Source of the DNA: an uncultured Acidobacteriia bacterium
GTDB taxonomy: Bacteria; Acidobacteriota; Terriglobia; Bryobacterales; Bryobacteraceae
Reading direction: 5' to 3'
Length of the DNA: 64,000 bases
Assembly: GCA_903907865.1 (NCBI GenBank)
Contig: CAIVPR010000005.1
Coordinates: 1 to 64,000, forward strand
In this document: positions 7,834 through 19,882 of the stretch, piece by piece
Layout of the letters: each line of letters opens with the position of its first letter
Position numbering within the stretch: position 1 is the first letter of the stretch
Position numbers and translations under genes: made by a program
The notes under the pieces: generated by a model
The model's database searches: none
Seen by the model: the letters and a program-made list of their open reading frames with translations, nothing else
What the model was told of the DNA's origin: nothing

Positions 7834-8045
7834 GAAAAGCACCGGGCACCCGCAGGATCTGGCGCAGAAGCTGAGGCTTGGGCCGTCGGGCTGCGTCGGA
7901 TGGCGCAACCAAAACAATCTTTTCCAGACCTGGCGGCGCGTGCAATCATGCTCGCCGCGTCTAGAACCCCCTTCAATGCAAGCATTTCCGAACCAAGGTG
8001 ACGTGCGCCGAAGGCCACCGCACCACCCCCGCAGACCCATTCCGT

Positions 8046-8062
8046 TTGGTGGTCAAAGTGCA
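8046..8062 (+). promoter_or_regulatory. Weak sigma-54-like -24/-12 element upstream of the hydrogenase locus
   Basis: TTGG at 8046-8049 and TGCA at 8059-8062 place GG and GC exactly 10 bases apart, the spacing required by sigma-54, about 65 bases before hypC. The intervening bases match the consensus poorly (TGGTCAAAG). The rest of the 290-base gap between the desaturase and hypC genes contains nothing else I recognise. Confidence 0.2.
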
Positions 8063-8126
8063 AATGGGAGCACGGCAACCAATGCCCTCGCACCGCGTTG
8101 CGAGAGAAGGGACCGGGACGTTCCAA

Positions 8127-8378
8127 ATGTGCCTCGCCGTACCAGGAAGGGTCGTGGATCTATTCGGGGATGACCCGGCCTTCCGCTCCGCCAACGTCGA
8201 TTTCTGCGGCATCCGCAAGAACGTCAATCTCGCCTTCACCCCCGAGGCCGAGCCCGGCGACTACGTCCTCGTCCATGTCGGCTTTGCCATCTCCCGCATC
8301 GACTCCGACGAGGCCCACCGCACCTTCCAGTACCTGAAATCCATCGGGGCCCTAAAAGAAGAGGGGTACGCGGTATGA
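8127..8378 (+). CDS. hypC: Hydrogenase maturation chaperone HypC
   Basis: HypC carries the Fe(CN)2CO unit with HypD and delivers it to the hydrogenase large-subunit precursor. The start at 8127 yields MCLAVPGRV, in which the second residue, Cys2, is the essential iron ligand; this fixes the start unambiguously. At 83 residues it has normal length. It is the first gene of the hyp/hydrogenase locus and its ATGA overlaps the hypD start, indicating translational coupling. Confidence 0.95.
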
Positions 8379-9463
8379 AATACGTAGACGAATACCGCGA
8401 CCCGGCAATCGCCATCGCCTTGGCCGGCCAAATCAACCACGCCTCCACCAAGCCGTGGGTCCTCATGGAAGTTTGCGGCGGGCAAACCCACACCCTGATG
8501 CGTTACGGCATCGGCGACCTGATCCCCGATTCCGTCGAACTTGTCCACGGCCCCGGATGCCCCGTCTGCGTCACGCCTCTGGAGATGATCGACCAGGCCA
8601 TCGTCCTCGCCGGCCGCCCCGACACCATCTTCACCTCCTACGGCGACATGCTCCGGGTCCCCGGCTCCCGCCGCGACCTCTTCCAGGCCCGGTCGGAAGG
8701 TGCCGACGTCCGTATCGTCTACTCCCCGATGGACGCCGTCCAGATCGCCCGCGCCAATCCCGCCAAGCAGGTGGTCTTTTTCGGTGTCGGCTTCGAAACC
8801 ACCGCCCCGGCCAACGCGATGGCGGTCTGGCAGGCGCGCAAGGAAGGCTTGCAGAATTTTTCGATGCTCGTTTCGCACGTCCTCGTGCCGCCCGCCATGC
8901 GCCTGATCCTCCAATCCCCCGGCAACCGCGTGCAGGGCTTCATCGCCCCGGGCCACGTTTGCGCCATCATGGGCTTCCGGGAATACGCGGACCTCGCCCG
9001 TGAATTCCACGTCCCCATCGTCGTCGGCGGGTTTGAGCCTGTCGACCTCCTCGAAGCCATTTCCATGCTGGTGGCCCAACTCGAAACCGGTCGCGCGGAA
9101 GTGGAAAACCAGTATTCCCGCTCGGTCGACTACCTCGGCAACCGCGCCGCCCAGAACATCATGCGCGAGGTCTTCACCGTGACCAACCGCAAATGGCGCG
9201 GCATCGGTGAAATCGGTTCGAGCGGCCTCCGGCTCAAAGACGAATTCGCAGCCTTCGACGCCGAGAAAGTCTTTGAGCTCCAATCGCTCCACGTCGAGGA
9301 ACCGCGCGAATGCGTCAGCGCCCTCGTTCTCCAAGGCCGCTGCAAGCCCGCGCAATGCCCCGCCTTCGGAACAACCTGCACGCCCATGCACCCCCTCGGA
9401 GCTCCCATGGTCTCGGCCGAAGGTGCCTGCGCCGCTTGGTATCAGTACAAACGCCATGACTGA
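8375..9463 (+). CDS. hypD: Hydrogenase maturation protein HypD
   Basis: HypD is the iron-sulfur scaffold on which the Fe(CN)2CO group of [NiFe]-hydrogenase is assembled. The 362-residue protein shows the family motifs CGGQTHT near residue 35, GPGCPVC near residue 62, and a cysteine-rich C-terminal region (about residues 315-340: [15 protein letters not shown]) that binds the [4Fe-4S] cluster. Length matches HypD. The start overlaps hypC by 4 bases and the end overlaps hypE by 8 bases, so hypC, hypD and hypE are tightly coupled. Confidence 0.96.
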
Positions 9464-10520
9464 AACGCTCACGATCAAACAACTCGCATTCACCTGCCCC
9501 CTCCCGGTTCCGGCGCACGACCGCATCGTCCTCGGCCACGGCAGCGGCGGGCGCCTCAGTGCCGACCTCCTGCGCGACGTCTTCCTCCAGCGCTTCTCCA
9601 ACCCGGTTCTGGACCGCCTTGACGACCAAGCCGTCTTCCCCATCGGCGGGGCTCACGTCGCGTTCACCACAGACTCCTTCGTGGTCCAGCCCCTCTTCTT
9701 TCCCGGCGGCGACATCGGTTCCCTGGCCGTCCACGGCACCGTCAACGACCTCGCAATGGCCGGTGCCACGCCGCTTTACATCAGCGCCGCCTTCATCGTG
9801 GAGGAAGGCCTGCCCATCGGAATGCTCCGCCGCGTGGCGGATTCGATGGCAAACGCGGCGGAAGCCGCAGGCGTCATGATCGTCACGGGCGACACCAAGG
9901 TGGTGGAACGGGGCAAGGGTGACGGCGTCTTTATCACGACCACGGGCATCGGCATCGTCCCGCCGGGCATCCGAATGTCCGCCAGCGAGGTTCAACCCGG
10001 CGACATCGTCATCCTCAGCGGCTACATCGGCGACCACGGCATCGCCATCCTCTCAAGCCGTGAGGGACTGCAGTTCGACACTACGATTCTCAGTGATTCG
10101 GCACCGCTACACGGACTGGTGGCCAGCATGCTCGCCGCTTCAACAGGCATCCGCTGCATGCGCGATCCCACCCGCGGCGGCTTGTCGAGCACTCTGAACG
10201 AAATCGCCACGGCTTCCGGCGTCGGTATCGAGGTCGTGGAGCACAAAATTCCGGTCCGCGACGAGGTCCGGGGTGCTTGCGAACTCCTCGGCTTGGACCC
10301 AATGTATGTCGCCAACGAAGGGAAACTGGTGGCGGTCGTAGCCCCCGAAGCGGCGGAAGCCGTGCTCGATGCAATGCGGAACCACCCGTTGGGTGCCGAC
10401 GCCGCCATGATCGGCATGGCCGTCCGCGACGATCCGGGCCTGGTGACGATGAAGACCGCCTTCGGCTCGACCCGCATCGTCGACCTGCTACCCGGAGACC
10501 AACTACCCCGCATCTGTTGA
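9456..10520 (+). CDS. hypE: Carbamoyl dehydratase HypE
   Basis: HypE accepts a carbamoyl group from HypF on its C-terminal cysteine and dehydrates it with ATP to give the thiocyanate that supplies the cyanide ligands. The start at 9456 lies inside hypD and gives a 354-residue protein of normal length. Family features are the N-terminal GHGSGGRLS nucleotide loop, the PurM-like TTDSFVV and [12 protein letters not shown] segments, and the exact C-terminal PRIC ending in the reactive cysteine. hypA follows after 13 bases. Confidence 0.96.
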
Positions 10521-10533
10521 ACGGAGTCCGCCA

Positions 10534-10857
10534 ATGCATGAGATGGGTATCGCCTGTTCCATTCTCGAAGCGGTTGAAAAGGAGCGGAAGCTCCATCCGG
10601 GATGCCGGCCCTACAAGGTAGCCGTCCGGATCGGTCAATTCGCAGGAGTCGACGGCGATTCCCTCCAGTTCTGCTTTGACGCCATGGTGAACGGATCCGC
10701 GCAGGCCCCGCTGGAACTGCAAGTGGAACCGGCGTTGGGCGACGAACTCGACATCGCGTGGTTGGAAATGGACGAGCCCGAACCGGAAGAACGCTCCCTC
10801 GCGAGCGTCGTTTCGTGTGGGCCCAACCGCCGAGGCAGCCAGGAGGCAACCAGATGA
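10534..10857 (+). CDS. hypA: HypA-like nickel metallochaperone lacking the zinc-finger segment
   Basis: HypA inserts nickel into the hydrogenase large subunit together with HypB. The N-terminus MHEMGIACSILE is canonical and retains His2 and Glu3 next to the nickel site; IGQFAGVDGDSLQFCFD also matches the family. Normal HypA proteins then have a roughly 30-residue zinc domain with two CxxC pairs. Here the chain goes directly from LELQVEPA (ends about residue 69) to LGDELDIAWLEMDE, which corresponds to the conserved last strand after the finger. No CxxC remains. The frame is open on both sides, so this looks like a clean in-frame loss. A tail of about 20 residues with one Cys follows. The gene overlaps hypB by 4 bases. 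Confidence 0.85.
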   Translation: MHEMGIACSILEAVEKERKLHPGCRPYKVAVRIGQFAGVDGDSLQFCFDAMVNGSAQAPLELQVEPALGDELDIAWLEMDEPEPEERSLASVVSCGPNRRGSQEATR

Positions 10858-11540
10858 TCCAAGTACCCATCGAACGCAAAGTCCTGAGTGAAAACGACCG
10901 CGTAGCCGCCGTCATTCGCTCACGCCTCGAAGCGATCGGGACTCTCACCCTGAACTTCATCGGCTCCCCCGGTGCAGGCAAAACCGCGTTCCTTGAACGG
11001 ACGCTCCAAATGCTTCCGCCCGGCACCAAGGCCGCAGTCCTGACAGGCGACATCCAAACGGAAAACGACGCCATCCGGCTCGCCCGCCATGGCTTTCCTG
11101 TGCAACAAATCACCACCGGCGGAGCCTGCCACCTCGACGCCCGCATGGTCGACAGCCATCTTTGGGAGTGGCGCTTCGAGGAATTCGACTATCTCTTCAT
11201 CGAGAATGTCGGCAATCTGGTCTGCCCCACAAGTTACGATCTCGGCGAGGACGGCAAGATCGTCGTACTTAGCGTGGCCGAGGGGGAAGACAAGCCCATG
11301 AAGTATCCGGGTATCTTCCGCAAGGCCGAACTCATGATCCTCAACAAGGTGGACCTTCTACCCTATGTCCCGTTTCAACCGGTTCTTGCCTGCGAGTACG
11401 CCCGCAACATCAAACCGGAGATAGATATCATCGAAACCTCGTCGCTCACCGGCGCGGGGTTCGGAGATTGGATGGCTTGGCTGGACCGGCGTAGGATCAC
11501 CAAGCACAACCTTTGCCTGAATAGTCCCGCGTTCGCCTAG
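10854..11540 (+). CDS. hypB: Hydrogenase nickel-incorporation GTPase HypB
   Basis: HypB is a SIMIBI-class GTPase that drives nickel transfer from HypA. The start at 10854 is preceded by AGGAGG (10841-10846) and overlaps the hypA stop. Visible are the P-loop GSPGAGKT, the metal-binding GGACHLDARM containing the Cys-His pair at the dimer interface, the switch segment LFIENVGNLVCP, and NKVDLLPY as the base-recognition motif. The N-terminal CxxCGC nickel motif and the His-rich stretch found in some HypB proteins are absent, so this version should have only the G-domain metal site. Length is 228 residues. Confidence 0.95.
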   Translation: MIQVPIERKVLSENDRVAAVIRSRLEAIGTLTLNFIGSPGAGKTAFLERTLQMLPPGTKAAVLTGDIQTENDAIRLARHGFPVQQITTGGACHLDARMVDSHLWEWRFEEFDYLFIENVGNLVCPTSYDLGEDGKIVVLSVAEGEDKPMKYPGIFRKAELMILNKVDLLPYVPFQPVLACEYARNIKPEIDIIETSSLTGAGFGDWMAWLDRRRITKHNLCLNSPAFA

Positions 11541-11549
11541 GAGGTTGCA

Positions 11550-12677
11550 ATGCTCGCACCCGACACCACTCTTGGCACGGCACTTACAAAACGAGGAGTC
11601 ACCCGTCGCCAACTTGTGAAATTCTGTAGCGCCATGTTAGGAACACTGGCGATGCCCGACCGATACCTTGCCCAAACCGTGGCCGCCATCACCAAGGCCC
11701 GAAAGCCCGTGCTTGTCTGGCTCCAGTTCCAAGACTGCACAGGCTGCTCGGAATCCATGCTCCGGTCAAGCCATCCTGATGTCGCCGATGTCGTCCTCGA
11801 CTTGCTCTCGTGGGAGTACCACGAAGTCGTCATGGCCGGTGCAGGCGACGCCGCCAACAAGGTCCTCGACCGGGTTGCCAAGGAAGAGAAAGGCAAGTAC
11901 ATCGTGGTCGTCGAAGGGGCCATCCCGACCGCCGAAAACGGCATGTACTGCACCATCGGCGGCCGGACCGCGCTCGACATCGCCACCCAGATGTGCACCA
12001 ATGCCGCAGCGACCGTCGCGGTGGGTGCCTGCGCCTTTGACGGCGGCCTCGTGCGGGCCAATCCGAATCCGACCGGCGCCCTCGGCGTCCATGAAGCCGT
12101 TCCGGGCATCAAGGTCATCAACATGTCCGGCTGCCCGCACAACCCGGTGAACACCGCCGCCGTGCTGGTCCACTACCTGACCTTCCACGACCTCCCCGAC
12201 CTCGACCAGTACAACCGCCCCCTCTTCGCCTACGGCCGCATCATCCACGACCAATGCGAGCGCCGCGCCCACTTTGACGCCGGCCGCTTCGTCACCGAGT
12301 GGGGAGACGACGGCCACAAGAAGGGCTGGTGCCTTTACAAGATGGGCTGCAAAGGTCCCCAGGCCAGCTTCAACTGCCCTATCGTCCAATGGAACGACCA
12401 CACCAGTTGGCCGATCCGCGCCGGACACGGCTGCATCGCCTGCGCCTCGCCACGCTTCTGGGACCACATGTCGCCGTTCTACGACCGGCTGCCGTCCGTC
12501 CCCGGGTTCGGCGTCGAAACTTCGGCCGGACAGATCGGCGTGGGCTTAGTTGGTGCCGCAGTGGCGGGCGTGACCGTCCATGGACTGGTCCGGACCATCT
12601 GGCCAGTCCCCTACCCCGCCAACGCCATCACCCCCGCAGCCCCCGACGCAGCCCCAACGGCAGGAAAGGAAAACTGA
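11550..12677 (+). CDS. hyaA: [NiFe]-hydrogenase small subunit, Tat-exported, membrane-anchored
   Basis: This 375-residue protein carries the three Fe-S clusters that relay electrons from the [NiFe] site. A Tat signal (VTRRQLVKFCSAML, twin Arg at 19-20) directs export and a C-terminal helix (QIGVGLVGAAVAGVTVHGLV) anchors it. Proximal-cluster ligands start in DCTGCSES (Cys63, Cys66). Position 65 is Gly, and GACAFDGG likewise lacks the second extra cysteine, so the six-Cys [4Fe-3S] cluster of oxygen-tolerant group 1d enzymes is not formed. The distal cluster uses IIHDQC and GWCLYKMGC; the medial [3Fe-4S] cluster uses NCP, GHGC and IAC. AGGAGG precedes the ATG. The large-subunit gene follows after one base. 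Confidence 0.95.
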   Translation: MLAPDTTLGTALTKRGVTRRQLVKFCSAMLGTLAMPDRYLAQTVAAITKARKPVLVWLQFQDCTGCSESMLRSSHPDVADVVLDLLSWEYHEVVMAGAGDAANKVLDRVAKEEKGKYIVVVEGAIPTAENGMYCTIGGRTALDIATQMCTNAAATVAVGACAFDGGLVRANPNPTGALGVHEAVPGIKVINMSGCPHNPVNTAAVLVHYLTFHDLPDLDQYNRPLFAYGRIIHDQCERRAHFDAGRFVTEWGDDGHKKGWCLYKMGCKGPQASFNCPIVQWNDHTSWPIRAGHGCIACASPRFWDHMSPFYDRLPSVPGFGVETSAGQIGVGLVGAAVAGVTVHGLVRTIWPVPYPANAITPAAPDAAPTAGKEN

Positions 12678-12678
12678 C

Positions 12679-14391
12679 ATGGCACGCATAGTTGTCGATC
12701 CCGTGAGCCGCATCGAAGGCCACCTGCGCATCGAGGCCAATCTCGAAGGCGGCAAGCTCAACGACGCGTGGAGTTCCGGAACCATGTTCCGCGGCATCGA
12801 AATGATCCTGAAAGGCCGCGACCCGCGCGAGGCGTGGATCTGGGCCCAGCGCATCTGCGGCGTCTGCACGATGGTGCATGCCATCGCCAGCGTGCGCGCG
12901 GTCGAGGACGCCTTGAAGATCGACGTGCCCGAAAACGCCAAGCTCGTCCGCAACCTGATCGCGGGCGCGCAGATGGTGCAGGACCACGTCGTCCACTTCT
13001 ACCACCTGCACGCCCTCGACTGGGTGGATGTGGCCGCCGCGCTGAAGGCGGATCCGGCCAAAACCTCGTCGCTGGCGCAGTCGATCTCGAACTGCGAAAA
13101 ATCCAGCACGACGTACTTCAAGGGCGTCCAAGCCCGCGTCAAGGCCGTCGTCGACAGCGGCCAGTTGAGCCTTTTCGCCAGCGGCTACTGGGGCCACCCG
13201 GCCTACACGCTGCCGCCCGAAGTCAATCTTATGGCCGTCGCCCACTACTTGGAGGCGCTCGCGTGGCAGAAGGACTTCATCCGCATCCACGCCGTTCTTG
13301 GCGGCAAGAATCCCCACCCGCAATCGTTCCTGGTGGGCGGCATGTCCACCGCGATGGACCCCGACGAGCCCGCCGCCGTCATCACCCCGGAGCGCATCAT
13401 CTTCATGCGCGACCTGGTGCGCGGCGCGCTCAAGTTCGTCAACGACTACTACATCCCCGACGTGCTCGCCATCGCCCCGCTCTACAAGGACTGGTTCACG
13501 CGCGGCGAGGGCCTCGGCAACTTTCTCGCCTACGGCGACTACTCCTTGGGCGACCAGAGCGACCCCAAGACCTTCCTCTTCCCCCGCGGCATCGTTATGG
13601 GACGCGACATCTCCCAAGTCTTCCCGGTGGACCCGCACAAGATCACCGAGTCCGTAGCGCACTCCTGGTACGAGTATTCCGACGGCAGCGCAGAAGGCCG
13701 TCATCCCGCCATCGGCGAGACGATCCCGAAGTACAGCGGCCCGAAAGCGCCCTTCGACCACCTCGACGTCGACGCCAAGTACTCCTGGCTCAAGGCCCCG
13801 AGATACGACGGCAAGCCGATGGAGGTAGGCCCGCTGGCCCGCATGGTCGTCGGCTATGCGTCGGGCAAGAAGGAAATCAAGGACTCCATTGACGGCGTCC
13901 TGAAAGCGCTGAATGCCCCGCCGACCGTGCTGTTTTCCACCTTGGGTCGGATCGCCGCCCGCGCGCTGGAATCGCAGTTGATGGCCAAACAGTTGGAGGG
14001 TTGGGTGAACCAACTCGACGACAACCTGAGCCACGGCAAGACGGCTATCTTCAATCCCGTCCGCTGGGACCCGTCCTCGTGGCCAAACTCGGCCGCAGGC
14101 GTGGGCTGGCACGAAGCACCCCGCGGCGCGCTGGGACACTGGGTCGAGATCGAGGGAAAGACGATCAAGAACTACCAAGCCGTAGTGCCGACCACATGGA
14201 ACGCCGGACCGCGCGACTCCAAGGGGCAACGCGGCGCCTACGAAGCGGCCCTACTGGGAACGCCCGTCGCCGACCCCAACCGCCCGCTGGAAATCCTGCG
14301 GACCATCCATTCCTTCGACCCCTGCATCGCATGCGCCGTGCACGTGATCGACGCCCAAGGCCGCGAATACACGATCCCGAGGATCTCGTAG
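12679..14391 (+). CDS. hyaB: [NiFe]-hydrogenase large (catalytic) subunit
   Basis: The 570-residue large subunit holds the Ni-Fe active site for H2 oxidation. The nickel ligands are seen as RICGVC (Cys60, Cys63) and DPCIACAVH (Cys549, Cys552); His555 marks the cleavage point after which a 15-residue C-terminal peptide should be removed by the maturation protease. The N-terminus MARIVVDPVSRIEGHLRIE is typical, and AGGAAAGGA lies just upstream of the start. The pair with a Tat-exported small subunit and a cytochrome b identifies a group 1 respiratory uptake enzyme on the outer face of the cytoplasmic membrane. The subgroup was not determined. Confidence 0.96.
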   Translation: MARIVVDPVSRIEGHLRIEANLEGGKLNDAWSSGTMFRGIEMILKGRDPREAWIWAQRICGVCTMVHAIASVRAVEDALKIDVPENAKLVRNLIAGAQMVQDHVVHFYHLHALDWVDVAAALKADPAKTSSLAQSISNCEKSSTTYFKGVQARVKAVVDSGQLSLFASGYWGHPAYTLPPEVNLMAVAHYLEALAWQKDFIRIHAVLGGKNPHPQSFLVGGMSTAMDPDEPAAVITPERIIFMRDLVRGALKFVNDYYIPDVLAIAPLYKDWFTRGEGLGNFLAYGDYSLGDQSDPKTFLFPRGIVMGRDISQVFPVDPHKITESVAHSWYEYSDGSAEGRHPAIGETIPKYSGPKAPFDHLDVDAKYSWLKAPRYDGKPMEVGPLARMVVGYASGKKEIKDSIDGVLKALNAPPTVLFSTLGRIAARALESQLMAKQLEGWVNQLDDNLSHGKTAIFNPVRWDPSSWPNSAAGVGWHEAPRGALGHWVEIEGKTIKNYQAVVPTTWNAGPRDSKGQRGAYEAALLGTPVADPNRPLEILRTIHSFDPCIACAVHVIDAQGREYTIPRIS

Positions 14392-14415
14392 CCAAGGAGA
14401 ACAAGGAGGCCCAAC

Positions 14416-15186
14416 ATGGACTCAACGAAACAAGGCATCCCTCGCGCCCGGCTGCAGAACCATCCGCGCCTGCGCGTCGGTCCGACCATTGCCGTCTACG
14501 TGTGGCAATACCCCTTGCGGTTGGCGCATTGGGGGCTGGTGCTCTGCATCGGCATCCTGTCGTTCACCGGCTACTACATCCACAACCCGTTCATCATCGG
14601 ACAATCCACCACCACCTTTCTAATGGGATGGATCCGGTTCATCCATGAAGTAGCGGCGATGCTCTTCATCGTCTTCCTGGTGATCCGCTTCTACCTCTTT
14701 TGGGGCGGCGACCGCTGGGTGCGAATCGGCGCCATGCTGCCGCTGAAGAAGAAACAGTGGGTGGAGATGGTGGAGATGGTCAAGTTCTACTTCCTGATCC
14801 GGCAGACGCCGGTCCCGAAAGTGGGGCATAACGCCATCGCGGCGGCATCGTACCTGATCACCTACGCGCTGATGGTAGTGGAAGTCATCACGGGCTTGGT
14901 GATGTTCAACTGGCTCTGGCACAGTCCGATCCTGACGCCGCTGGTCGGGTGGATTCCGCGTCTTGTTAATATTCAGGATCTCCGGCTCATCCACTTCCTG
15001 CTGATGTTCGTGTTCATCACCTTCGGAATCATCCACGTCCACATGTGCCTCACGGTTTCGGGCGTGGAGAAGCGCGGACTGATCGACAGCATTTTCACCG
15101 GGTACAAGAACATCCCGGTGGAGGAACTCGAGGAGGACGACCACGAGGCCATCGCGGCAGCTGGCGGCCTGAGAGTGCGCAAGTAA
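14416..15186 (+). CDS. hyaC: Hydrogenase b-type cytochrome subunit
   Basis: This 256-residue di-haem membrane protein takes electrons from the small subunit and reduces quinone. Four membrane helices are visible, with candidate haem-ligand histidines in LRLAHWGLV, RFIHEVAAM, LRLIHFLLM and GIIHVHMCL. The arrangement matches the HyaC/HupC family, whose members are about 210-260 residues long. A good ribosome site (GGAGG, within AAGGAGGCCC) precedes the ATG. The stop codon is immediately followed by the ATG of the maturation protease gene, so the two are likely translated together. Confidence 0.93.
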   Translation: MDSTKQGIPRARLQNHPRLRVGPTIAVYVWQYPLRLAHWGLVLCIGILSFTGYYIHNPFIIGQSTTTFLMGWIRFIHEVAAMLFIVFLVIRFYLFWGGDRWVRIGAMLPLKKKQWVEMVEMVKFYFLIRQTPVPKVGHNAIAAASYLITYALMVVEVITGLVMFNWLWHSPILTPLVGWIPRLVNIQDLRLIHFLLMFVFITFGIIHVHMCLTVSGVEKRGLIDSIFTGYKNIPVEELEEDDHEAIAAAGGLRVRK

Positions 15187-15663
15187 ATGTTGGAAGCTTA
15201 CTTGGAAGCCACGGTACTTGGGTTGGGGAACCTCGTCCACATGGACGACGGTGCGGGGGTCCATGCCATCTCCCTCCTTCAGATGGACCCCCGCGTTCCC
15301 CACGGCGTGGTGCTGCTAGACGGCGGCACGCAAGGCTTGGGGCTGCTACACCATATTTCGTCGGCCCGCCGCCTGCTGGTGGTGGATGCCGTGGACGTCG
15401 CCGAGCCCCCGGGCACGGTGGTGCGGTTTGAAGGGGCGGCGCTGCGCGGATTGCCGGGCAAGGCGTCGATCCACCAGTTGGGCTTCGCGGACCTGATGGT
15501 GGCTCTGGAACTGCTCGGGGAATCTCCGGGAGAGGTTGTGGTGTTGGGAGTGCAGCCGGAATCCACGGAATGGGGGGCGGATTTGACGCCCGCCGTGGCA
15601 GCCGCCATACCCAAGTTGGTGGACTGCGTGGTTGCGGAGCTGGAAGCCTGGCGGACGCAATGA
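15187..15663 (+). CDS. hyaD: Hydrogenase maturation endopeptidase (HyaD/HupD family)
   Basis: This 158-residue cytosolic endopeptidase recognises nickel in the large-subunit precursor and removes its C-terminal peptide. It contains the family N-terminus VLGLGNLVHMDDGAGVHA, an acidic nickel ligand in LLVVDAVDV, and the histidine ligand in SIHQLGFADLM. Length agrees with HupD/HyaD proteins. The gene begins directly after the cytochrome b stop codon with no spacer, and the large-subunit gene two positions upstream encodes the matching cleavable tail. Confidence 0.92.
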   Translation: MLEAYLEATVLGLGNLVHMDDGAGVHAISLLQMDPRVPHGVVLLDGGTQGLGLLHHISSARRLLVVDAVDVAEPPGTVVRFEGAALRGLPGKASIHQLGFADLMVALELLGESPGEVVVLGVQPESTEWGADLTPAVAAAIPKLVDCVVAELEAWRTQ

Positions 15664-15715
15664 GGCCCCGCACCAACCGGGCATGCCTTGAGTTCCAGGA
15701 ACTGCTCGCGTCCGT

Positions 15716-15831
15716 TGTGGGGCGGCCATTCCTGGCTGCGAGGTGGCTTTCAGCCGCCTCATGCGCCGCAAGGCGCAGGTTGCTTGCGGATCCCCGCTGG
15801 ATGCCGCCGGCAGGAACGGTCGTTTGGCCAC
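15716..15831. repeat. REP/MITE-like palindromic element, copy A (long hairpin)
   Basis: The segment starts with TGTGGGGCGGCCATTCCTGG and ends with an imperfect inverted copy. The reverse complement of the end reads GTGGCCAAACGACCGTTCCT, so CGGCCATTCCTGGCTGC pairs with CGACCGTTCCTGCCGGC. It occupies the gap between the protease gene and hypF and contains no credible gene. The layout, about 115 bases with imperfect terminal inverted repeats, resembles bacterial intergenic REP or MITE elements. Confidence 0.6.
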
Positions 15832-15874
15832 GGCGCAACTGTAACCGGCCACCATCTCATTGCACCACCACGAC

Positions 15875-15913
15875 TGTGGGGCGGCCAATATTGGCCGCGG
15901 CGGGCTTTGAGCC
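15875..15913. repeat. REP-like element, copy B (short form)
   Basis: This second copy repeats the opening of copy A: TGTGGGGCGGCCA, then (A)T-rich centre, TGGC-GC, and GGCTTTxAGCC. It contains the perfect 16-base palindrome CGGCCAATATTGGCCG (15881-15896 or within a base). It lies in direct orientation about 160 bases from copy A and 54 bases before the hypF start. Confidence 0.6.
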
Positions 15914-15967
15914 AACCGTAACCGAACAACAAATCGCGCCAGCACCACCCACAACCGGGCGGACTCC

Positions 15968-18226
15968 GTGACCATCCGTCGCCGAATCGAACTCCAAGGT
16001 GTGGTTCAAGGCGTCGGCTTCCGCCCCTTCGTCTACCGCACCGCCCTCCGCTACGGTATTAACGGTCGCGTCTGGAACTCATCCGAGGGCGTGTTCATCG
16101 AGGTGGAAGCCGCTACCAATCAGATCGACTGCTTTCTCCAGACCCTCCAGTCGGAACTCCCGCCGCTCGCCCGCATCGACCACCTCGCCGTTTCCGAACA
16201 ATCCCCAGTCGGTACCAGGAACTTCGAAATCGACACCAGCCAGACAATCCCAGGCCAATTCGCGCTAGTCCCCCCCGATATCGCCACCTGCCCCGAATGC
16301 CTCGCCGACTTCACCGACCCCGCCAACCGCCGCTTCCACTACCCCTTCACCAACTGCACCAACTGCGGTCCGCGCTATTCGATCATCCGCGACGTGCCCT
16401 ACGACCGGCCCTTCACCACCATGGCCGACTTCCCCATGTGCCCGGCCTGCGAGGCAGAATACACAGATCCGCTGAACCGCCGCTTCCATGCAGAGCCCAA
16501 CGCCTGCCCCGACTGCGGCCCGTCCCTGGAACTGGACGGGGAATCCACCGGCGATCTCCCGGCGCGCGCCCGCGAGCTGCTCCACGCGGGCAAGATCCTC
16601 GCGGTCAAAGGCCTCGGCGGCTTCCACCTCGCGTGCGACGCCACGAGCGAGGCCGCCGTCGCCCTCCTGCGCGAGCGCAAACGGCGCAGCGGCAAGGCCT
16701 TCGCCGTAATGGCGCGGTGCGCCGAGGTGGCGGACCGGCTCTGCCTTGTCGGCGACGCGGAGCGCCAGTTGCTCGAAGATCCCCGCCGCCCCGTCGTCCT
16801 GCTGCCCTCGCGCCCGGACAACGGTGTCGCCCCAAGCGTAGCTCCCGGACAAAACCGACTGGGCGTCATGCTGCCGTACACCCCGCTCCACCACCTACTT
16901 TTCGACGACTCCCTCACAACCCTCGTCATGACCAGCGGCAACATGGCCGAAGAGCCCATCGTCAGCCGCAACGACGAGGCCCGGCCCCGGCTGCATACCC
17001 TCGCCGACCACTTCCTGCTGCACAACCGCCCCATCCAGACCCGCGTCGACGATTCCGTCGTCCAACTATTCGAGGGCCGCCCATACCCTGTGCGAAGGTC
17101 GCGCGGCTATGCCCCGGAACCTATCGCGTTGCAACATCCGATGGCCGAAATCCTAGCCTGCGGCGGCGAACTGAAAAACACCTTCTGCCTCACCAAGGAC
17201 CGTTACGCGATCCTCAGCCAGCACATCGGCGACCTCGAAAATCTCGAAACCATGGCGTTCTTCCGAGAGACCCTCGCGCATCTGCAGCGGTTCTTCAGGG
17301 TGAAACCGGTGGCCGTGGCGCACGACCTGCACCCGAACTACCTCGGCACGCGATTCGCCCTCCAGGAATCGGGACTGCCCCCCATCGGCGTCCAGCACCA
17401 CCACGCGCACATCGCCAGTTGCATGGCCGACAACGGAATCGACGGCAACGTGATCGGCGTCGCGCTTGACGGCACGGGCTACGGAACCGACGGCAACATC
17501 TGGGGCGGCGAGTTCCTCGTGTGCGATTTCCTGGAGTTTGAGCGCGCCGGGCACCTCGCCTGCATGCCGCTCGCGGGCGGCGATTCGGCGGTCCGTCAAC
17601 CTTGGCGCAGCGCCATGGCATATCTGCGGGCGACCTTCGGCAGCGTCGCCCCGATTCCCGGGCTGCCCGTCTTCCGCGACGTGCCCGCCAAGCAAATCCA
17701 GGTGGTCGGGACGATGCTGGAAAAGGGCCTCAACACCATCCCAACCTCCTCCTGCGGACGCCTCTTCGACGCCGTCGCATCTCTGCTCGGCCTCCGGCAC
17801 GAAACCACATATGAAGGTCAAGCCGCGATTGAGCTGGAGATGATGACTTCTAACGCCTCGGGAACCTACGACTTCGACATCGTCGGGCGCGATCCGTTCC
17901 AGATAGATATGCGCCCGACGATTGCGGGCATCGTCCGCGAAATGCGCATGGGGGTACCGCCCGGCGACATTTCGGCAAGATTCCACTCCACCGTGGCGCA
18001 CGTGGCGGCTGAAGGCTGCAAGCATATCCGCGAGGCTCATGGCTTGAACCGCGTTTGCCTCAGCGGCGGCACATTCCAGAACCTGAGGCTGCTGGGCCAA
18101 ACGTCCGAACTGCTTCGCCACGCGGACTTTGAACTATTCACTCACCTCCGGGTGCCGACAAACGACGGCGGACTCGCACTCGGCCAAGCCGTCATCGCCA
18201 GCCACCGGCTCCGCAATACCGGGTAG
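15968..18226 (+). CDS. hypF: Carbamoyltransferase HypF
   Basis: HypF activates carbamoyl phosphate with ATP and passes the carbamoyl group to the C-terminal Cys of HypE, the first step in making the CN ligands. The 752-residue protein has all four expected parts. There is an acylphosphatase-like domain (GVVQGVGFRPFV), then paired zinc fingers (CPEC...CTNC and CPAC...CPDC). A YrdC-like domain (KILAVKGLGGFHLACDA) and a Kae1-like domain (HDLHPNYLGT, VQHHHAHIASC, LDGTGYGTDG, LSGGTFQN) follow. The start is GTG at 15968. It is separated from the protease gene by 304 bases holding two repeat copies, so it may need its own promoter. Confidence 0.95.
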   Translation: MTIRRRIELQGVVQGVGFRPFVYRTALRYGINGRVWNSSEGVFIEVEAATNQIDCFLQTLQSELPPLARIDHLAVSEQSPVGTRNFEIDTSQTIPGQFALVPPDIATCPECLADFTDPANRRFHYPFTNCTNCGPRYSIIRDVPYDRPFTTMADFPMCPACEAEYTDPLNRRFHAEPNACPDCGPSLELDGESTGDLPARARELLHAGKILAVKGLGGFHLACDATSEAAVALLRERKRRSGKAFAVMARCAEVADRLCLVGDAERQLLEDPRRPVVLLPSRPDNGVAPSVAPGQNRLGVMLPYTPLHHLLFDDSLTTLVMTSGNMAEEPIVSRNDEARPRLHTLADHFLLHNRPIQTRVDDSVVQLFEGRPYPVRRSRGYAPEPIALQHPMAEILACGGELKNTFCLTKDRYAILSQHIGDLENLETMAFFRETLAHLQRFFRVKPVAVAHDLHPNYLGTRFALQESGLPPIGVQHHHAHIASCMADNGIDGNVIGVALDGTGYGTDGNIWGGEFLVCDFLEFERAGHLACMPLAGGDSAVRQPWRSAMAYLRATFGSVAPIPGLPVFRDVPAKQIQVVGTMLEKGLNTIPTSSCGRLFDAVASLLGLRHETTYEGQAAIELEMMTSNASGTYDFDIVGRDPFQIDMRPTIAGIVREMRMGVPPGDISARFHSTVAHVAAEGCKHIREAHGLNRVCLSGGTFQNLRLLGQTSELLRHADFELFTHLRVPTNDGGLALGQAVIASHRLRNTG

Positions 18227-18255
18227 CAACCGAGGCATACCGAGACGGCAAAGGA

Positions 18256-18269
18256 GTGCCCAAGGGCAC
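18256..18269. terminator. Small inverted repeat between convergent genes
   Basis: GTGCCC-AA-GGGCAC is a perfect 6-base-pair inverted repeat in the 60-base gap between the ends of hypF (plus) and the carboxylesterase gene (minus). It could terminate transcription from either side, but a T run is weak on both strands. Confidence 0.3.
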
Positions 18270-18286
18270 GTCGGCCATGCGACGAG

Positions 18287-19882
18287 CTATAGCCCGTTGC
18301 CGGATGGATGCCTTGATACAATCGCCAGTTCGTCCTGGTCCGGCTGTTCGACGGCCTCGCATTTCGTGCCGTCCACTATCATCGTCGCGCGTTTGGCAAC
18401 GGTGTAGGCTGGCCACTGCAACCTCGCGGAACTCGGATTACCGGTCCGCGCGAAGGCCGCCCAAGCGCCGCTGATGCGCTTCGAGAGTTCCTCGGATTCC
18501 GCATGCTCCACAACCCGCATCACCAACGGCAACTCGGCCGTGTGGAACGCGCGCAGCCTGCCCGCGCCGTTGGGGGTGTTCCAGACGAACTGGTAGAGGT
18601 AAACGTTGGCCCCGCCCTGATCCAACTTAAGCGAGGCTTGGATATTGACGTTGTGGCGCGCTCCCCGGTCGCTCGAGATCCGAAAGTACGTGTCCGTCGG
18701 GGTGTCGGCCGGGTGGTCGCGCCGGTAATGGCCTAACAGGGCGTCGACTTCCGTAACCGGGATCCCGGCTTGGATCACCGCGCCCCGCAGACTTGTCGCA
18801 TCGAGATGGAAAAGTGCCTTCCCGGCGGGCGTGCGAGGCGTGAACAGGGTCGACTCGTCCTTGCAATTCCCGATGATCATCGGAATGCCAGCCGATTCCG
18901 AAGGCGCCTTCGGATCCCAGGTCTGATGCGGCAGCGTTTGGCCGTCGACAACCGGGCCCAACCCGCTGCCATTGCCCGCCGCCCAGAGCTTCTCCATTGG
19001 CAGCTTTGCGAAGTCGTCGACCTGGCTTTCCGCCATCCCGGCCTTCTTCAGCACGGCCCGCGCAACCGCGGTCCCGGCCTCCGGCGTGGCCGCTTTCAGC
19101 ATGGAACCGCTCTCGACGATGGCCTTGTGGAACAGCCCGCGAGCCTTGGGCATCGCCATCAGGGCATTGACCTTGCCCCCACCGCCCGATTCGCCCCAGA
19201 TCGTGACGTTGCCCGGATCGCCGCCAAACCGCGAGATGTTGTCGCGGATCCACTCCAGCGCCAGCACCAAGTCGAGATGCCCAACATTGCCGACTTGGTA
19301 CTTCGGGCTCAGACCGCCGACATAGAGATACCCGAAAACGTTGATCCGGTGGTTGACTCCAACCAGAACGACGTCTTGCTCCCGCACCAGCCCGTCGCCG
19401 AACAGCGAGAGCATGCTGCATCCGCCGGTAAACCCGCCGCCGTGCAGGTAACACATCACGGGGCGCTTGCCGCGCGTCCCCGCAGTGAGCACGTTCAGGG
19501 TGAGGCAGTTTTCGCCTTCCTTCTCCAAGGCAAGCTCCGGACGCTCCTTGCCACCCTTGAAGTAACCGCCAATCGTCGGGTTGCTGAACAGGGACGCACC
19601 GTTCTGAAAGCACTTCGGGCCTGGTGCGACGCATTCACGCACGCCGGTCCACTTGGCGGGGTGTCCGGGAGGCAGGAACCTCGAACCGGCGTCGACCGGA
19701 CGCCCGTACGGAATGCCCCGGAAAATCTGGACACCGCGGACGCTGACTCCGCGCACCTTTCCGTGCCTCGTCGCCACGGTCGGCGAGCTACTGTCAGCCC
19801 CGTAGACCGGCGGCAAGCTCAACCCCAATGCCGTGGCCGCACCCGCGCGCCCTAGAAACTCCCTGCGATGAAAGTTGTCCAT
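18287..19882 (-). CDS. Type-B carboxylesterase, Tat-exported
   Basis: This 531-residue alpha/beta-hydrolase belongs to the COesterase (type B) family and would hydrolyse carboxylic esters outside the cytoplasm. A Tat-type leader (FHRREFLGRAGAATALGLSL) begins the protein. The catalytic triad is visible: Ser in GESGGGGKV (the usual GESAGG with Ala replaced by Gly), Glu in NCKDESTLF, and His in RAFHTAELPL. The oxyanion segment is YLHGGGFTGG. It shares its strand with the upstream monohaem cytochrome gene (39 bases apart) but has its own promoter-like sequence. The natural substrate is unknown. Confidence 0.9.
   Translation of the reverse strand: MDNFHRREFLGRAGAATALGLSLPPVYGADSSSPTVATRHGKVRGVSVRGVQIFRGIPYGRPVDAGSRFLPPGHPAKWTGVRECVAPGPKCFQNGASLFSNPTIGGYFKGGKERPELALEKEGENCLTLNVLTAGTRGKRPVMCYLHGGGFTGGCSMLSLFGDGLVREQDVVLVGVNHRINVFGYLYVGGLSPKYQVGNVGHLDLVLALEWIRDNISRFGGDPGNVTIWGESGGGGKVNALMAMPKARGLFHKAIVESGSMLKAATPEAGTAVARAVLKKAGMAESQVDDFAKLPMEKLWAAGNGSGLGPVVDGQTLPHQTWDPKAPSESAGIPMIIGNCKDESTLFTPRTPAGKALFHLDATSLRGAVIQAGIPVTEVDALLGHYRRDHPADTPTDTYFRISSDRGARHNVNIQASLKLDQGGANVYLYQFVWNTPNGAGRLRAFHTAELPLVMRVVEHAESEELSKRISGAWAAFARTGNPSSARLQWPAYTVAKRATMIVDGTKCEAVEQPDQDELAIVSRHPSGNGL

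Follow-up and report, generated by a model that had tools for sequence, protein, structure and literature searches.

The locus described here raises the question of whether a HypA protein that lacks the zinc-binding module can still serve as a nickel chaperone for a [NiFe] hydrogenase, or whether its shortened gene is the remnant of a lost function. In the cited passages of a nickel-chaperone review, the zinc site is described as present in all HypA proteins (PMC7055735), and no description of a HypA without the zinc domain was found in the titles or abstract openings of the open literature searched. The hypA gene of the window, by which we mean the whole stretch of 64,000 nucleotides analysed, is an open reading frame at 10534..10857 of the plus strand, on which all features given below also lie, and encodes 107 amino acids. 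Its translation began with the Met-His-Glu nickel-binding N-terminus (10534..10542) and contained the last β-strand (ELDIAWLEMDE), with no CxxC pair anywhere, and 30-33 or so residues were absent in comparison with the relatives, all as the original prediction had described for a CxxC-bearing segment of about 30 residues. The junction was placed by the strands of the predicted model and by alignment at 10735..10746, where four residues link the last two strands and where the relatives carry the zinc ribbon.

The protein scored 44.5 bits against PF01155 (cut-off 28.9), with the match restricted to the first 65 of 112 positions, and 35.5 bits against TIGR00100, below the cut-off of 88.1, which the zinc-bearing relative L082 also failed to reach (68.2 bits). 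With the known HypA/HybF family (PF01155, TIGR00100; structures 3a43 and 5aun of T. kodakarensis, 6g81 and 2kdx of H. pylori) it shared the nickel fold, the Met-His-Glu start, the last β-strand and the adjacency to hypB, whereas the zinc-free class to which it belongs is only 81-107 amino acids long and has no ribbon, compared with 117 (6g81) and 139 (3a43) residues in solved HypA proteins. As it has the nickel domain, the fold and the genomic context of HypA but lacks the two CxxC pairs by which a zinc ribbon was recognised, the protein is best called a zinc-free HypA.

No replacement of the missing module was found in the C-terminal tail, in the operon or as a second HypA in the genome. The original prediction had drawn attention to an added C-terminal tail, and the tail does exist as 63 extra in-frame bases (10779..10841), but it lies outside the shared feature, since L069 and L072, its two closest relatives, lack these bases; for the same reason the tail was rejected as a replacement of the zinc ribbon. 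Among the open reading frames of less than 400 amino acids on both strands of positions 7901-18300, two CxxC pairs occurred solely in the hydrogenase small subunit, and no separate zinc ribbon was found in the operon. PF01155 matched the window's own genome, a 98% complete draft, only once, at the window hypA itself, and no second HypA was found there. Four single Cys residues (8, 24, 47, and 95) occur in the window protein, which may therefore carry some other metal site.

Structure prediction indicated that the nickel domain is intact. The AlphaFold2 model, made with 51 aligned sequences, resembled solved HypA and had a mean pLDDT of 87, with blocks of 94-97 across residues 1-80 and low confidence in the tail; strands were predicted at residues 61-67 and 72-80, with the four-residue link as a tight turn where the relatives have the ribbon. 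All of the model's 14 best structure matches in the PDB came from HypA entries, headed by 3a43_B (TM 0.67 by query length), and two of the 14 reached E 0.001 or better. The nickel ligands of H. pylori HypA are Met1 and His2 and probably also Glu3 and Asp40, according to the cited part of PMC5557546. His-Glu followed the start in all 25 zinc-free proteins of the class found beside HypB, here called class A (three with a GTG start; one, L068, incomplete). The codon at 10651..10653 aligned with Asp40 of H. pylori HypA in the alignment to 6g81 and 2kdx, and Asp was kept at this position in 23 of the 25 proteins, the two without it being L044 and L182. Twenty of the 25 contained no more than two Cys residues. 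The archaeal His98 was also considered as a lost ligand and rejected, as residues 87-102 of T. kodakarensis HypA did not align to the class A profile, and for this reason the His98 segment appears to be absent from the zinc-bearing class A relatives as well.

The partner gene hypB (10854..11540) shares its first 4 bases with the end of hypA, and its product scored 250.8 bits against TIGR00073 (cut-off 121.2). The GTPase domain with its Cys-His and Cys metal site was present, with C92, H93, and C124 kept, which presumably correspond to C166, H167, and C198 of E. coli HypB by the offset of the TIGR00073 match if no gap is assumed. By the same offset, assuming no gap between, the hydrophobic N-terminal pair V4 and I6 maps to L78 and V80 of E. 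coli HypB, which are needed for HypA binding according to the cited text of PMC3287977. HypB over the cut-off was found in all 22 genomes tested of the 24 that have a complete class A zinc-free HypA, and in the remaining two, G107 and G136, hypB adjoins hypA. The original prediction was correct that the window HypB has neither the CxxCGC nor the His-rich N-terminal segment, but this state is ordinary in these bacteria, being shared by 149 of the 161 HypBs beside HypA (125 with zinc-bearing and 24 with zinc-free HypA), and the plain N-terminus was therefore rejected as part of the zinc-loss story. The 12 HypBs that do have CxxCGC and a His-rich N-terminus all came from Chlorobiaceae loci (L148, L149, L154, L164, L166, L168, L170, L171, L172, L176, L178, and L179), whereas the CxxCGC site is called unique to E. 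coli in the review passages cited above (PMC7055735). Compensating positions were also sought in HypB, and several columns differed with the zinc state of HypA, most strongly residues 151 and 184 after trimming, but the three well-supported independent pairs available did not demonstrate a compensating change.

The hydrogenase locus around hypA and hypB was otherwise complete, as had been predicted, with every gene on the plus strand. Upstream lie hypC (8139..8378; PF01455), hypD (8375..9463; PF01924), and an open reading frame at 9468..10520 (PF00586, PF02769) that we take to be hypE from its place and fold. Downstream lie the small subunit (11550..12677; PF14720, PF01058) and the large subunit (12673..14391; PF00374) of the [NiFe] hydrogenase, a cytochrome b subunit (14416..15186; PF01292), a hydrogenase maturation protease of the HyaD/HycI type (15187..15663; PF01750, TIGR00072), and hypF (15968..18226), which contains the HypF finger, HypF_C, YrdC, and acylphosphatase domains. 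The large subunit contained both CxxC ligand motifs, and its match to the closest solved chain in the PDB search, 3myr, stopped 15 residues short of the C-terminus, so that the removable C-terminal peptide seems to be present. The maturation protease is specific for the nickel-loaded precursor, as stated in the cited part of PMC12134894, so the locus looks built for nickel insertion.

The missing segment was not peculiar to the window. The alignment of relatives that had been proposed at the outset showed the same internal 30-33 or so residues to be absent in the other zinc-free genomes of the genus and family. In all, 24 complete zinc-free HypA proteins beside HypB were found; the window's family contributed 23 of them (five from its genus), and the remaining one came from a different family of the same phylum. 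In the genus, HypA was found in 10 of 19 genomes, of which five matched the model over its full length and the other five no further than its first 64-67 positions, and zinc-bearing orthologues were thus present in the genus itself. Three of these (L079, L080, and L082) were 46-53% identical to the window protein over the aligned proteins and had related HypBs, but they keep the two CxxC pairs that the window protein lacks; the operons of L079 and L080 are complete. In the family, 111 of 200 genomes had a HypA match, and reading of the sequences identified class A zinc-free HypA in 22 of the 200, 21 complete and one (G034) cut by the contig end; adding G006 and G013, which came from the survey of the genus, to the 21 gives the 23 complete family proteins. 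Of the 24 genomes that hold a complete class A zinc-free protein, 22 showed no other HypA match, and 20 of these 22 were at least 90% complete.

In a wider sample of the phylum, 204 of 396 genomes had a HypA match at E 0.001 or better (182 over the cut-off), and three genomes outside the family (G280, G513, and G581) were conspicuous by their best E-value. The sample was judged on this value, with second matches listed in part and 22 matches below the cut-off left unread, so rare zinc-free cases may have been missed. The zinc-free HypA of G513 adjoins HypB and was grouped with class A, though its HypB falls outside the main clade. Other phyla were sampled solely through a scan of named genomes, in which nine short HypAs were seen among the best 80 of 337 relatives, and all nine were copies of family genomes already met (labelled Acidobacteriia, Acidobacteria, Bryobacterales, or Bryobacteraceae).

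A few irregular genes were met during the survey. At L074:8468-9127 (G166), the first ~38 residues of a class A HypA continue in frame into the hydrogenase maturation protease; the intervening genes look deleted, through true decay or through misassembly. The HypA-like genes at L234:2751-3740 (G203) and L235:1566-2036 (G183) had weak HypA scores and a first zinc motif altered to C-x-C, and no HypB was found beside them within the fetched stretch. At L223:3111-3497 (G113), the second CxxC region of HypA was apparently out of frame, which appears to be a sequencing error or recent damage.

Phylogenetic analysis showed that the zinc module of HypA was lost several times independently in one acidobacterial family. 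A HypB tree of 155 rows, 24 of them zinc-free, gave nine parsimony changes in the zinc state, a count that leaves regain of the ribbon possible, and at least four changes were forced by well-supported branches. A single shared origin of the zinc-free rows was rejected on this tree (AU p 5.2e-5), in which ten long-branch rows including the zinc-free L182 were unsurely placed and the bootstrap had not settled. Duplicates, HypAs without a HypB within 600 bases, HypBs shorter than 170 amino acids and the frameshifted L223 had been left out of it. In a separate tree of the 75-row HypAB clade with 23 zinc-free rows, six changes were obtained, at least three of them forced, and a single origin was again rejected (p 5.3e-4). 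The closest contrast was found in the sister HypB lineages L051 and L198 (support 100/97), which accompany a zinc-free HypA of 82 amino acids and a zinc-bearing one of 115 amino acids, respectively; the two HypAs differ by 33 residues, and in the protein alignment similarity was found on both flanks of the gap. The genome from the different Acidobacteriota family, G513 (L182/L236), had zinc-free HypA and HypB in a complete operon, and its zinc-free state is possibly a separate loss, because its HypB lies on a long branch beside a Calditrichota sequence (97/93).

Of seven zinc-free pairs compared across 66 nickel-domain codons, six showed purifying selection on the shortened gene, with dN/dS at 0.12-0.16, and the seventh (L044/L048) gave 0.49; the seven are non-independent, as three of them involve the window and its two sisters. 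Nine zinc-bearing pairs gave 0.04-0.18 over 66 codons, with seven at 0.10 or less and two with saturated dS, and the mixed pair L051/L198 gave 0.24 over the same number of codons.

On these comparisons, we consider it probable that the product of the window gene is a functional nickel chaperone pared down to the nickel domain of HypA, and that the zinc module is dispensable in this HypAB lineage. This reading is drawn from conservation, namely the 24 short forms beside HypB, the purifying selection, the retained His-Glu, and the complete operons wherever contigs suffice. The hydrophobic N-terminal segment of HypB would bind the nickel domain of HypA, and nickel would be held on the Met-His-Glu end, possibly together with Asp40; upon GTP hydrolysis by HypB, nickel would pass to the large subunit, and the C-terminal peptide would then be cut. 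The zinc module, which elsewhere serves in structure, in pH or nickel sensing, or as an extra ligand, would have become dispensable in the HypAB lineage before it was lost. Dispensability is spoken against by the H. pylori zinc-site Cys-to-Ala mutants, which retained 9-36% of hydrogenase activity, three of the four being at the level of the hypA knock-out (12%), in the cited results of PMC5557546. The two situations differ in that the zinc site was disabled there by a point change, with variable defects, while the gene described here has been retained after losing the entire module.

The strongest challenge to a working chaperone is that hypA might be a slowly decaying remnant whose product no longer matters, nickel insertion being achieved through mass action or by HypB unaided. 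High nickel bypasses HypAB in the laboratory, so HypA is not always essential, as stated in the cited part of PMC12134894; one zinc-free pair stood at a dN/dS of 0.49, the other zinc-free pairs were somewhat above most zinc-bearing pairs, and the fused gene of G166 looks like a true remnant. Against decay stand the His-Glu retained in 25 of 25 proteins, the intact frame, the position next to hypB maintained over long branches, and purifying selection in all but one of the seven pairs; we regard decay as unlikely. The original prediction of a reduced but working pathway is thus favoured by the comparisons, with nickel delivery itself inferred. That the absence comes from assembly collapse or misread bases has a practically negligible chance: the window comes from a draft genome in 186 contigs, yet the same in-frame absence recurs, together with purifying selection, in many assemblies made separately under different project labels, so the class is not an artefact. 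Neither of the two objections raised at the outset, a collapsed assembly and a second hypA elsewhere, was borne out, given this recurrence and the single HypA match in the genome.

Two further explanations concern why the module was lost. Zinc-free paralogues of ribosomal proteins are a precedent for zinc sparing, and loss of the HypA zinc site could likewise save zinc in zinc-poor habitats; the removal of a zinc site and the recurrence of the loss within one family agree with this, and as the explanation of the locus it seems quite improbable, though it is compatible with the working chaperone, as its cause. The zinc-free form could also be tied to one type of hydrogenase whose large subunit can dock without a zinc domain, as the large subunits of six further zinc-free loci were 76-94% identical to that of the window. 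Against this, zinc-free HypA also accompanied the large subunit of L052 and L054, a different type with 56% identity to that of the window (the copy of the L052 subunit in L107 had Salmonella hydrogenase-1, 4c3o, as the closest solved chain), and a third type in L236 (58% identical to the window's, 64% to that of L052). Since zinc-free HypA spans three enzyme types and the L052 enzyme shares 75-76% identity with its counterparts in L079 and L080, two loci with a zinc-bearing HypA, the zinc state of HypA does not track enzyme type, and an enzyme-bound explanation is very unlikely.

A second zinc-free class, class B, was found in hydrogenase loci, mostly of genomes without a HypB over the cut-off. 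These HypAs are 82-89 amino acids long, have no CxxC, and were read in ten family loci (L050, L053, L055, L057, L058, L061, L062, L064, L065, and L067; 10 of 200 family genomes) and in two loci outside the family, in G280 and G581 (L181/L237 and L183/L238). Their neighbours, where the contig was long enough, were hypF, hypC, hypD, and hypE. Large subunits were seen in seven of the ten family loci, and all ten open reading frames contained both CxxC ligand motifs. The two large subunits of L062 matched best to 7t2r and to sulfhydrogenase 1, and we take them to be group 3-like; a neighbour in L237 resembled the group 1 subunits of the window (566 bits). HypB over the cut-off was found in none of the ten genomes in which class B is the sole HypA over the cut-off, although five of these genomes show sub-threshold relatives from the GTPase superfamily, and G131 is only 81% complete. 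In G053 and G060, class B occurs alongside zinc-bearing HypA and HypB. The class B profile gave one strong match among 297 genomes of the phylum, in G280 (1.1e-26), the other matches being at 4.4e-15 or worse and nearly all confined to the nickel domain, as expected of any HypA; a scan of viral contigs found no class B relatives. Judging from sequence, we suggest tentatively that nickel insertion into [NiFe] hydrogenases may use a zinc-free single-domain HypA and, in class B, no HypB, which would make it a one-protein minimal chaperone for group 1-like and group 3-like enzymes.

The natural zinc-free HypAs contrast with the universal zinc site of the cited review passages (PMC7055735) and with the defective Cys mutants of H. 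pylori in the cited results (PMC5557546). Zinc-free and zinc-bearing orthologues can be paired within one genus, and L051 with L198 offers such a pair in sister HypB lineages; the repeated natural loss of the module beside intact operons makes the role of the zinc domain of HypA directly testable in this family.
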